From Levilactobacillus huananensis (GTDB taxonomy: Bacteria; Bacillota; Bacilli; Lactobacillales; Lactobacillaceae): a DNA stretch of 64,000 bases. The first letter of the stretch is position 1. Each line of letters starts with the position of its first letter. Made by a program: the position numbers and the translations under genes. The stretch is taken from contig NZ_RHOC01000001.1 in assembly GCF_003946145.1 (NCBI RefSeq), forward strand, positions 186,001 to 250,000. Reading direction: 5' to 3'. The notes under the pieces are model-generated. The model made no database searches and was not told the origin of the DNA. It was given only the letters and a program-made list of their open reading frames with translations. Shown here in pieces: positions 15,814-18,995 of the stretch.

Positions 15814-16959
15814 ATGGCGCAAACGGACTTTTATGGCGTATTAGGTGTCTCCAAGGATGCTAGCCAAGATGAAATTAAGAAAGCCTATCGTAAGTTATCA
15901 AAGAAGTATCATCCAGATTTAAACAAGGCCCCGGATGCGGCGGACAAGTTTAAGGAAGTTCAAGATGCTTACGATGTTTTAGGCGATAAGGACAAACGAG
16001 CTAATTACGATCAGTACGGTTCTGCCGATGGTCCCCAAGGATTTGGTGGCTTCGGTGGCGGCGATGCTGGTGGTTTCGGCGGCTTTGGTGGTGGCGCCGG
16101 TGACTTTAGCGACATCTTTAGCCAAATGTTTGGCGGCGGTGCCCAACGAAATCCCAACGCGCCTCGTCCGGGTCGTGACCTGCAGTACCAGATGGACTTG
16201 AAGTTTGAAGAGGCCATTTTTGGGAAGAAGACCAAGATCAAGTACACGCGTGAAGCTCAGTGTCACACCTGTGGTGGTAATGGTGCTAAGCCAGGCACGT
16301 CACCTGAGACTTGTCATCAATGTGGCGGTTCCGGTTACGTGACGACTGAGACTAACACGCCATTAGGGCGGATGCGTCGCCAGCAACCATGTCCTGTTTG
16401 TCATGGGACGGGTCAAGAAATTAAGGAGAAGTGTCCAACCTGTGGTGGATCTGGCCATGAAGAAGAAAAGCACGAAGTTGAAGTTACAATTCCAGCCGGA
16501 GTTGATGACGGTCAACAAATGCGGTTACAAGGTCAGGGTGAAGCCGGTCAAAACGGTGGCCCTTATGGGGATCTCTTCATTATCTTTGAAGTGACGCCTA
16601 GCAAGGACTTCCGGCGTGATGGCACTGAGATCTTCTTTGATCAACCCATTTCCTTCGTCCAAGCGGCAATGGGTGATGACGTGACGGTGAAGACCGTCCA
16701 CGGCGATGTGAAGTTGAAGGTGCCTGCTGGTACTCAGGGTGGCACCATCTTCCGGCTACGTGGCAAGGGTGCCCCTCGTTTGCGTGGTAACGGCAATGGT
16801 GATGAACATGTCACGATCAAAGTCTTAACCCCTAAGAACTTAAATAAGGGACAACGGGATGCCTTACGTGACTTTGCCAAGGCTAGTGGTGAAAGTGTTT
16901 CCGGCTCGGGCAAAGGTAACTTATTTAACAAAATGAGAGACAAATTTAATGAGAATTAG
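15814..16959 (+). CDS. dnaJ: Chaperone protein DnaJ (Hsp40)
   Basis: Co-chaperone that stimulates the DnaK ATPase. It starts at the ATG at 15814, seven bases after GGGAGG. The J domain ([23 protein letters not shown] in KYHPDLNK) occupies residues 1-70. It is followed by a Gly/Phe-rich linker, four CxxCxGxG zinc repeats ([32 protein letters not shown]), and the C-terminal substrate-binding domains. Length, 381 residues, is normal. Confidence 0.98.
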
Positions 16960-16994: not shown

Positions 16995-17026
16995 AAGGCC
17001 GCTGAAGGTTTTCGGCGGCCTTTTTT
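16995..17026 (+). terminator. Intrinsic terminator after dnaJ
   Basis: AAGGCCGCTGAA pairs with TTCGGCGGCCTT and is followed by a run of T, 35 bases after the dnaJ stop. Confidence 0.88.
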
Positions 17027-17091
17027 GTGCCCAAACAATTACATCAAAAATTATGAAAGAAAAAGAAAGTGTTAAGCTTGAGTAGTGTTGA

Positions 17092-17120
17092 TTGCAATCC
17101 GGTTTTGGCAATGCTAATCT
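17092..17120 (+). promoter_or_regulatory. Sigma-A promoter of the dlt operon
   Basis: TTGCAA (17092-17097), a 17-base spacer and TAATCT (17115-17120) with an upstream TG (extended -10). It predicts a transcript start near 17127. Confidence 0.6.
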
Positions 17121-17126
17121 CAAAAC

Positions 17127-17260
17127 ATAAGGAACGTGGCGGAGCCACGGAATTCCTCCCTGTGCAGCTTGGATTCGTCGGGGAAAAGACAGGTTGTATG
17201 GGTGCGAACGGAAGCTGATTTGGGGGACGAATCAATCAGCAGAACCTGGGGGTGAGTTTC
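17127..17260 (+). ncRNA. Structured dlt leader RNA, possible cis-regulator
   Basis: This untranslated leader of about 134 nt in front of dltX holds several complementary segments. There is a perfect hairpin CGTGGC-GGA-GCCACG (17135-17149). GATTCGTC (17172-17179) pairs with GACGAATC (17226-17233). The second of these lies in the loop of GCTGATT/AATCAGC (17214-17220 and 17234-17240), which makes a pseudoknot. CAGGTT (about 17190) can pair with AACCTG next to the ribosome-binding site. CAGCTT/AAGCTG (17165-17170 and 17212-17217) would form an alternative fold. I do not recognise a known RNA family; the regulatory role is inference. Confidence 0.45.
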
Positions 17261-17410
17261 ATGAGAGCAAAGTGGCTGGCGTTTTGGCATCAGCCAGTGG
17301 TCGCCTTTATTGGCTGGACAGCGTTTTACTTTGTTATTTTGATGGTACTAGTTTATTTATATGGGTATAGTGGGTTAAATAATTCCACGTTTATCTATAA
17401 CGAATTCTAA
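17261..17410 (+). CDS. dltX: D-alanylation-associated small membrane protein DltX
   Basis: A 49-residue protein found immediately upstream of dltA in most Gram-positive dlt operons. It has one membrane helix (about residues 12-36) and the conserved C-terminal end STFIYNEF. DltX-type peptides are required for D-alanylation and are thought to act with DltB at the membrane, where the C-terminal motif takes part in D-Ala transfer. The ATG follows CTGGGGGTGAG. It begins directly after the structured leader, so any leader control would act on its translation first. Confidence 0.93.
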   Translation: MRAKWLAFWHQPVVAFIGWTAFYFVILMVLVYLYGYSGLNNSTFIYNEF

Positions 17411-17465: not shown

Positions 17466-18995
17466 ATGATTGAAAATATGATTACAACTATTGACCATTT
17501 TGGTCAAGTCGATCCCAACCGGATCGCTTATGATTACCTGGGTCAAACCAACACTTATGGTGAGCTGAAGAGTCGTTCGGACGCTCTCGCTGCACATTTA
17601 GACGCCATGCAGTTACCGGCAAAGGCTCCCATCTTAGTTTATGGGGGACAAACCTTTAACATGCTGGCGACTTTTTTAGGCATTGTGAAGAGTGGTCACG
17701 CCTATGCACCGATTGACACGCATTCACCATTAGAACGAGTTACGACGATCAATGAAATTGCACAGCCCGCAGCGGCCATTGCCGTTGAGGCCTTACCAAC
17801 TACACTTGGGTCAACGCCGGTGATTACGCCGGATGCCCTAGACAACATTTTCAATGGTCCCGTTGTGGATTACCAAGTCGATCACGCCGTTGCAGGGGAT
17901 GATAACTACTACATCATCTTTACCTCCGGGACGACTGGGAAGCCCAAGGGGGTTCAGATTTCACATACGAATCTTTTGAGCTATGTTAACTGGATGTTGA
18001 GCACGGACTTCGCGTTACCTGACGCGCCTAGGACGCTGTCACAAGCGCCATACTCATTCGACCTATCTGTTATGGACTGGGGGCCAACCTTGGCTGCTGG
18101 TGGGACGTTGGTAGCATTACCTAAGCAGATTACGGATAATTTCCGTCAGCTCTTTGAAACCTTGCCAACGATGGACCTGAACGTCTGGGTTTCCACACCG
18201 TCCTTTATGGATATTTGCTTGTTGGAGCCCACTTTTGATGCCGAACATTATCCACATCTTAGCCGGTTCCTGTTCTGTGGGGAAGAATTAACCCACGGAA
18301 CCGCGCAGACGCTGTTGGATCGATTCCCAAGTGCGCGGATCTTCAACACCTATGGCCCAACCGAAACGACGGTTGCCGTCACCCAGGTTGAGATTACCGC
18401 AGAACTTTTGGCAGATAATCCTCGATTGCCAATCGGGTACGCCAAGCCAGACACCACGATTACCGTGGTCGATGACGAGTTGAACCCGGTTCCTGCTGGC
18501 ACAGAGGGTGAACTGCTAATTAGTGGGCCATCAATGTCTAAGGGTTACCTCAACAACCCGGAAAAGACGGCAAAGGCCTTTGTGACCAGCGATGGTCATG
18601 AAGTCTACCGTTCGGGTGACCTAGGAGTTCAACTGACTAACGGGCTTATCATGTACCGTGGTCGGACGGACTTCCAGATCAAGCTTCATGGTTATCGGAT
18701 CGAACTTGAAGAAGTCAATCACTACTTGACGCAAGAGGCGCACATTCAGGTAGGGGTTGCCGTTCCTCGGTATGACCGAAACCACAAGGTGAGCCAACTG
18801 ATTGCGTGGATTGTCCCGAGCAGTTCGGATTTCGCCAACGAATTGGCGCTTACGAAGGCCATTAAAGAAAACTTACAAGGTGGCGACATGATGGAATATA
18901 TGATCCCACAGCGATTCGTGTATAAGGAAAGCCTGCCGATGACTCCCAACGGCAAGGTTGATATCAAATCAATTATCGCTGAGGTCAATCAATAA
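17466..18995 (+). CDS. dltA: D-alanine--poly(phosphoribitol) ligase DltA
   Basis: Activates D-alanine with ATP and loads it onto the carrier DltC. It is an ANL-superfamily adenylation enzyme of 509 residues with core A3 IIFTSGTTGKPKGVQISH (about residue 150), A5 NTYGPTETTVAVT (about 295), A8 YRGRTDFQIKLHGYRIELEE (about 394) and the C-terminal catalytic Lys in MTPNGKVD (about 495). The ATG follows a G-rich site, with a second in-frame ATG five codons later. The stop overlaps the dltB start by one base. Confidence 0.97.
   Translation: MIENMITTIDHFGQVDPNRIAYDYLGQTNTYGELKSRSDALAAHLDAMQLPAKAPILVYGGQTFNMLATFLGIVKSGHAYAPIDTHSPLERVTTINEIAQPAAAIAVEALPTTLGSTPVITPDALDNIFNGPVVDYQVDHAVAGDDNYYIIFTSGTTGKPKGVQISHTNLLSYVNWMLSTDFALPDAPRTLSQAPYSFDLSVMDWGPTLAAGGTLVALPKQITDNFRQLFETLPTMDLNVWVSTPSFMDICLLEPTFDAEHYPHLSRFLFCGEELTHGTAQTLLDRFPSARIFNTYGPTETTVAVTQVEITAELLADNPRLPIGYAKPDTTITVVDDELNPVPAGTEGELLISGPSMSKGYLNNPEKTAKAFVTSDGHEVYRSGDLGVQLTNGLIMYRGRTDFQIKLHGYRIELEEVNHYLTQEAHIQVGVAVPRYDRNHKVSQLIAWIVPSSSDFANELALTKAIKENLQGGDMMEYMIPQRFVYKESLPMTPNGKVDIKSIIAEVNQ

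Follow-up and report, generated by a model that had tools for sequence, protein, structure and literature searches.

The window analysed here, a stretch of 64,000 nucleotides from Levilactobacillus huananensis, carries a dltXABCD operon in which dltX comes first and is followed by dltA (start at 17466), dltB (18995), dltC (20242) and dltD (20479). The gene dnaJ ends at 16959; the leader region comes next, and then dltX with its ATG at 17261. An earlier reading, made from the letters alone (the sequence-only reading), had placed a leader before the dlt genes, and its gene context was right: DltX is identified by PF12459, and DltA, DltB, DltC and DltD exceed their NCBIfam cut-offs. A DltX search found the protein in 35 of 35 Levilactobacillus genomes, and these, together with one further locus added later (L076), give the 36 loci compared here. 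In a search of named genomes, 28 of the 31 dltX loci carried the name Levilactobacillus, including L. brevis, L. paucivorans, L. koreensis, L. zymae, L. namurensis and L. spicheri. Measured from ATA to ATG, the leader is 132-140 nt long at all 36 loci, each of which has the Shine-Dalgarno sequence GGGGGTG, with GGGGG and ATG set 8 or 9 nt apart.

Upstream of the leader a candidate promoter can be read, consisting of TTGCAA and an extended -10-like TGCTAATCT, in which the exact -10 hexamer is ambiguous by about 2 nt. This promoter block is conserved in an oriented alignment of the genus, and a scan for promoter consensus sequences gave no listing for it at 17092-17120. Judged from the promoter spacing, transcription would start at about 17125-17128, and the leader would lie at the 5' end of the transcript, as its 5' UTR. 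In the same alignment the promoter region from 17069 to 17120 is conserved as strongly as the leader. About 20 nt 5' of TTGCAA lies a conserved block, TTAAG(G/C)TTGAGT, and GCAAT is repeated around the spacer; at the block a regulator of the dlt operon might bind. The regulator box TTAAGSTTGAGTR, searched with at most two mismatches, was not enriched (104 + 91 places compared with 107 + 119 for the reversed pattern), and its single further exact copy in the own genome falls within a reading frame. The features of the region are collected in the table.

Table. Features of the dltX leader region, with positions in the window. A1 is the alignment of 27 leaders that was made without structure.
Feature	Positions	Strand	Remarks
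Candidate promoter: TTGCAA (17092-17097) and extended -10-like TGCTAATCT (17112-17120)	17092..17120	+	read from the sequence
P1, 5' strand (AGGAA)	17130..17134	+	90.4% of cells paired; 2 of 5 pairs with changes on both sides (A1)
P1a hairpin, 6 bp (17135-17140 with 17144-17149)	17135..17149	+	94.8% of cells paired; 5 of 6 pairs double-changed (A1)
P1, 3' strand (TTCCT)	17153..17157	+	together with the next CCC, complementary to the Shine-Dalgarno region
P2, 5' strand	17159..17171	+	13 bp with 17190-17202
Kissing strand 1, GATTCGTC	17172..17179	+	P2 loop, followed by GGGGAA in the window; 99.1% of cells paired (A1)
P2, 3' strand	17190..17202	+	13 bp with 17159-17171
P4 hairpin, 7 bp (17214-17220 with 17234-17240)	17214..17240	+	99.5% of cells paired; 5 of 7 pairs double-changed (A1)
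Kissing strand 2, GACGAATC	17226..17233	+	P4 loop, GGGG just before; 99.1% of cells paired (A1)
Shine-Dalgarno GGGGGTGA	17248..17255	+	8 nt from GGGGG to ATG
dltX	17261..17410	+	PF12459 DltX match, E 2.4e-22

Comparison of the leaders leaves us almost certain that a real RNA structure has been conserved in the Levilactobacillus dltX leader, with three hairpins in series, namely P1 with P1a, P2 and P4. The longest helix is P2. When 27 sequences were folded with both kissing strands and the Shine-Dalgarno sequence held open, P1a, P2 and P4 were read by eye in all of them and P1 in 26, L016 being the one without it. The inner pair of P1 shows an exchange of G-C for A-U. The single-sequence fold of the window is unremarkable (z = -1.45, with 16 of 200 shuffles as good), and therefore the window alone is not beyond chance.

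All the pairings listed in the sequence-only reading are present as sequence where it had located them, including the 8-bp pairing of GATTCGTC with GACGAATC. Its 7-bp hairpin with one strand of this pairing in the loop is confirmed across species as P4. The stem of its GGA hairpin covaries and is our P1a, but the loop, GGA in the window, varies among the species. P1 and P2 are absent from its drawing. The 8-bp pairing itself, which it took to form a pseudoknot, is borne out by the species comparison; since its first strand lies in the loop of the P2 hairpin, the pairing joins two loops, as a kissing contact of P2 with P4, and is not a simple pseudoknot of one hairpin. Among the 27 rows of A1 the invariant loop residues are ATTCGTCG in the P2 loop and GGGG, a four-G run, together with CGAAT in the P4 loop, in a leader that otherwise changes fast. 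The G-run of the P2 loop is looser, reading GGGGA by eye in 24 of the 28 rows of the main group, which is A1 with L076. The Shine-Dalgarno core is all G (GGGGG, 17248-17252 in the window) at 36 of 36 loci, and G-runs are kept in the P4 loop as well.

In A1, which was built with MAFFT and excludes L076 and eight divergent leaders, 87.3% of cells are paired, and 23 of the 37 pairs show changes on both sides; shuffles gave 77.5% of cells paired, and slid controls no more than 46.3%. An adjusted alignment of 28 rows, the A1 rows plus L076, served for the all-pairs test, the null and the counts of pair types, from which the eight divergent rows were left out; in it, L018 and L019 each have one base shifted between adjacent columns. 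Our null preserves phylogeny by redistributing the changes of each column over the tree. Over 1000 runs its paired cells averaged 813 and never exceeded 894, compared with 1021 observed. Taken helix by helix, the observed value was reached or exceeded in 37 of the 1000 runs for P1, the weakest helix of the leader, in 1 for P1a, in 3 for the kissing helix and in none for P2 or P4. In P2, 318 of 364 cells are paired, compared with a null mean of 186. Since the P2 register was picked for each sequence among six loop lengths so as to maximise pairing, the P2 figures in the all-pairs test, the null and the pair-type counts err on the optimistic side; in the MAFFT alignment without this adjustment, the two segments of the helix are paired in 75.3 and 62.5% of cells.

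The kissing helix is paired in 222 of its 224 cells over the 28 rows, and six of its eight pairs are invariant in A1. The seventh pair is U-A in 14 and U-G in 13 of the 27 rows of A1, and the outer pair is G-C in 20, C-G in 4 and U-A in 2 of the 28 rows (only G-C or C-G in A1). The compensatory changes that the sequence-only reading would lead one to look for were present in the alignment, yet no single pair stands out: in an R-scape-like test over all 9316 pairs of the 28 rows, E < 0.05 was reached by no pair, structural or not. We expect such a test to have little power on 28 related sequences, yet its result counts against the structure. Eight of its ten top-ranked pairs are structure pairs. 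If E is scaled to the 40 proposed pairs only, 12 would pass 0.05, a figure that is partly circular for P1 and P2 because both were derived from the same sequences. Over the 28 rows, G-U pairs outnumber A-C by 75 to 11, and by 37 to 5 without P2, an excess that suits a sense-strand dlt RNA rather than a palindrome in the DNA. Since the three-hairpin fold has been kept by evolution, the leader is very probably an RNA control element that had not been described.

Eight loci (L028, L030, L031 and L059-L063), grouped around L. zymae, L. namurensis and L. spicheri, form a divergent subclade. Despite their widely differing sequence, P1, P2 and P4 were seen again by eye in unconstrained folds of all eight leaders, with P1 formed for example by GCAAU/AUUGC or by CAUUUACC/GGUAAAUG. 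Here, the tops of P2 and P4 form local stems. Complementarity between the loops was no better than in shuffles at the seven subclade loci tested (72 to 362 of 500 as high; L059, with a leader identical to that of L030, was left out), whereas only 0 to 35 of 500 shuffles were as high in the 28 rows of the main group. The kissing helix is therefore a feature of the main group. In this subclade, local stems on the two hairpins have apparently taken the place of the kissing contact, a natural experiment on that contact; by eye, all eight leaders retain GGGGA in the P4 loop.

The range of the element was addressed with a model built from the 27 leaders (R1), which matches all 36 dltX loci tried, nine of them outside its training, with E from 8.7e-41 to 6.6e-5. 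The eight subclade leaders, set aside as a test set, were matched with E from 8.1e-9 to 6.6e-5 in 159 kb, and L076 with 8.7e-41. Within the genome from which the window comes, R1 has a single strong match (3.6e-35); two further matches, at E 0.37 and 2.7, are weak and were judged by score only. Under stricter filters, by which weak matches are lost, R1 matched 27 of 397 genomes of the family, 25 of them from its own genus, and 9 of 395 genomes of the order, seven from the genus and two weak at E 0.073 and 0.079. The two family matches outside the genus (E 0.041 and 0.071) are by eye a coding-like stretch and a repeat array, and we read them as chance. At 45 dltX loci outside the genus, which cover 20 genus labels and were drawn from 302 DltX-matching genomes of other genera, the best R1 score with filters off was 10.1 bits (E 0.32). 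The sequence-only reading had looked to Lactobacillaceae at large; within the genomes sampled, the element was found only in Levilactobacillus, with no convincing copy outside it. As far as the searches show, it appears to be an undescribed, genus-restricted structured mRNA leader.

Two observations were made by eye in other genera. At positions 1200-2220 of the locus L058, a unit of about 42 nt (CCCCCAAAGTATGTCAACCG...) is repeated in an array, after which come repeats that resemble its reverse complement; this array is the source of one of the chance matches of R1. At L121, L122, L136-L138 and L160, a TGTTAG-like motif stands 5' of dltX instead of the Levilactobacillus block, possibly the site of a different dlt regulator.

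We consider a cis-regulatory role of the leader on dlt to be likely. As a structured 5' leader of about 132-140 nt on the dltXABCD mRNA, it would act in cis and set the amount of Dlt protein. In a scan of the window, the sole terminator-like site on the + strand between dnaJ and dltX lies at 16995-17022, 5' of the promoter, and none was found inside the leader; for this reason, the leader should act on the translation of dltX or on the survival of the mRNA, and not by intrinsic termination. A search for a leader-peptide frame, limited to ATG starts, found none whose position is shared by the 36 leaders. With no terminator-like site, no common ATG and no CsrA match found in the genus, translation or mRNA stability is the likely level of control.

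The explanation that we tentatively put forward as the best for the whole, at less than even confidence, is a cis leader in which competition for the Shine-Dalgarno sequence is combined with a sensing core formed by P2 and P4. The 3' strand of P1 would be an anti-Shine-Dalgarno sequence, pairing with either the 5' strand of P1 or the Shine-Dalgarno sequence. In the first case the ribosome site would be free and dltX would be translated; in the second case it would be hidden. The kissing core with its conserved loop residues would sense some signal and bias the choice between these two pairings.

In the window, UUCCUCCC at the 3' side of P1 is able to pair with the Shine-Dalgarno region at -16.6 kcal/mol. 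The same value is found in L004 and L005, -12.8 kcal/mol in L003, and -6.9 to -10.7 kcal/mol in the other 24 rows of the main group, so that the pairing is strong in 4 of the 28 rows and weaker in 24. The P1 3' region is the best partner of the Shine-Dalgarno sequence in 15 of the 28 rows, and in the other 13 it ranks 11th or better among 106-112 overlapping positions. For the window, the fold with a free Shine-Dalgarno sequence (-36.4) and the kissing duplex (-9.7) add up to -46.1, a sum that omits the cost of closing the kissing loop, compared with -43.9 for the pseudoknot-free optimum. On a slightly shorter stretch of the window, the optimum (-43.6) pairs the P1 3' region with the Shine-Dalgarno sequence. 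The corresponding sums, again without the loop cost, lie below the pseudoknot-free optimum in 20 of the 28 rows and above it in 8. In L060 and L061 the P1 3' strand reads GGUAAAUG and is unable to act as an anti-Shine-Dalgarno sequence. Moreover, part of this complementarity comes about automatically, given that GGAG pairs with CUCC in P1 and that the Shine-Dalgarno sequence is GGGGG. Since it is strong only in the clade of the window and impossible in L060 and L061, competition for the Shine-Dalgarno sequence is our first choice for the switch, but a possibility that we would not call probable.

A more specific form of this proposal, to which we give a rather low probability, would make the P2-P4 kissing core with its conserved, G-rich loops the aptamer of a genus-restricted riboswitch-like class, in which an envelope-related signal frees or hides the Shine-Dalgarno sequence of dltX. 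The candidate signals would be a cation, D-alanine, a nucleotide second messenger or a cell-wall precursor, and the output would be the D-alanylation of teichoic acids. The subclade of L. zymae, L. namurensis and L. spicheri would then represent a naturally occurring variant, which swapped the kissing contact for local stems and kept GGGGA in P4. Cationic peptides and pH, which the sequence-only reading had offered as the input, are guesses.

The leader might also do its work without sensing anything, as a constitutive stabiliser or insulator at the 5' end, where P1 and the kissing core would guard the mRNA against 5' exonuclease and leave the Shine-Dalgarno sequence unobstructed. This would suit the position of P1 at the putative 5' end, a few nt from the predicted transcription start, the 20 of 28 rows in which the fold with a free Shine-Dalgarno sequence plus kissing duplex lies lowest (loop cost omitted), and the persistence of P1 pairing through wide sequence change in the subclade. 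However, a stabiliser does not need a conserved 8-nt loop-loop helix with invariant loop residues, even if these could serve rigidity, and we regard this account as somewhat unlikely. The same invariant residues, in the loops of P2 and P4 of an otherwise fast-changing leader, could instead be the site of a regulatory protein that binds the kissing core and represses or activates the translation of dltX. Against this stands the lack of a candidate protein: CsrA, the obvious reader of GGA hairpins, had no match in the 35 genus genomes but did have one in 3 of 14 control genomes, and GGA is not a constant feature of the loop, which speaks against a leader controlled by CsrA. A protein site is in our view unlikely. 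In the clade of the window two folds are close in energy, as would be expected of an RNA thermometer or of a fold that responds to pH or ions but has no pocket dedicated to a ligand; yet this balance is not kept over the species, where the difference ranges from -5.6 to +7.6 kcal/mol (28 rows), and melting does not require an 8-bp kissing contact with invariant loops, so that a sensor of this kind is improbable. Conservation at the level of the DNA, in an operator or cruciform or by chance next to the promoter, would go together with the strong conservation of the promoter and of the 20-nt block upstream. It is made very improbable by compensatory changes far above the phylogenetic null and by the excess of G-U over A-C on the sense strand.

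The switch drawn in the sequence-only reading, in which a pairing of CAGCTT (17165-17170) with AAGCTG (17212-17217) competes with a pairing of CAGGTT (17190-17195) with AACCTG (17243-17248) at the ribosome site, is to our mind scarcely credible. Both pairings are present in the window, and their strands lie in P2, in or beside P4 and at the ribosome site. Nevertheless, the first is complete in 2 and the second in 3 of 27 species, all of them close relatives in the clade of the window, and the two specific competing folds have to be given up. CAGCTT/AAGCTG is paired in 57.5% of cells, above 500 of 500 column shuffles, and also on the covariation score, in a control that ignores relatedness; its slid version reaches 50.0%. 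CAGGTT/AACCTG is paired in 55.6% of cells, a value as high in 91 of 500 shuffles, and its covariation score was matched by 1 of 500. From the general claim of a structured regulatory leader just 5' of dltX, the comparison upholds the structured RNA with its kissing contact and drops these folds.

Several classes of translational riboswitches, for example the purine, preQ1 and guanidine-II classes, have loop-loop or pseudoknot cores. The dlt leader is like them in being a short 5' leader with conserved loop residues, a loop-loop contact and a Shine-Dalgarno sequence just downstream. It is unlike them in having no Rfam match at gathering and in being confined to one genus and one operon. Lacto-rpoB and Lacto-usp are orphan, lineage-specific leader motifs of Firmicutes held in Rfam. 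With these the dlt leader shares a narrow distribution, a single gene context and the lack of an assigned function, whereas its gene context is another one and no Rfam model matched it in the scans made. Rfam release 15 (4227 families) gave no match in the window. A search of 601 bases around the leader with E up to 10 gave 10 matches, all below gathering, and a search in 11 relatives with E up to 1 gave two below gathering, both 5' of the leader in L079.

Koprivnjak and co-workers reportedly described, in 2006, the control of the dlt operon of Staphylococcus aureus by cations. The dlt operons of S. aureus and of Lactiplantibacillus plantarum share their function with that of Levilactobacillus, the D-alanylation of lipoteichoic acid. 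The sequence-only reading knew of no described leader RNA for dltX; in agreement, no Rfam family reaches gathering, and no dlt leader RNA is described in the accessible portions of the open-licence literature searched, including PMC9217812, PMC5094136, PMC7051946, PMC10241514 and PMC9386232. In L. plantarum the operon pbpX2 (dltE)-dltXABCD begins with pbpX2/dltE, according to PMC10241514, whereas in Levilactobacillus dltX comes first after dnaJ, with a putative promoter of its own and a structured leader. At 11 loci of another genus label (g38; L123-L126 and L128-L134), dltX by eye stands closely behind the end of another apparent reading frame, an order which resembles pbpX2/dltE-dltX of L. 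plantarum as given in PMC10241514. At these loci the gap is short, with a strong and close Shine-Dalgarno sequence and no space for a leader.

D-alanylation sets the envelope charge of Gram-positive bacteria and hence their tolerance of acid and cationic peptides. The control of dlt is known mostly via two-component systems. If our proposal is true, a leader RNA on dlt would add an RNA layer to the control of envelope charge in bacteria of food and beer. The natural variants over the 36 loci, including a subclade apparently without the kissing contact, make the mechanism directly testable.
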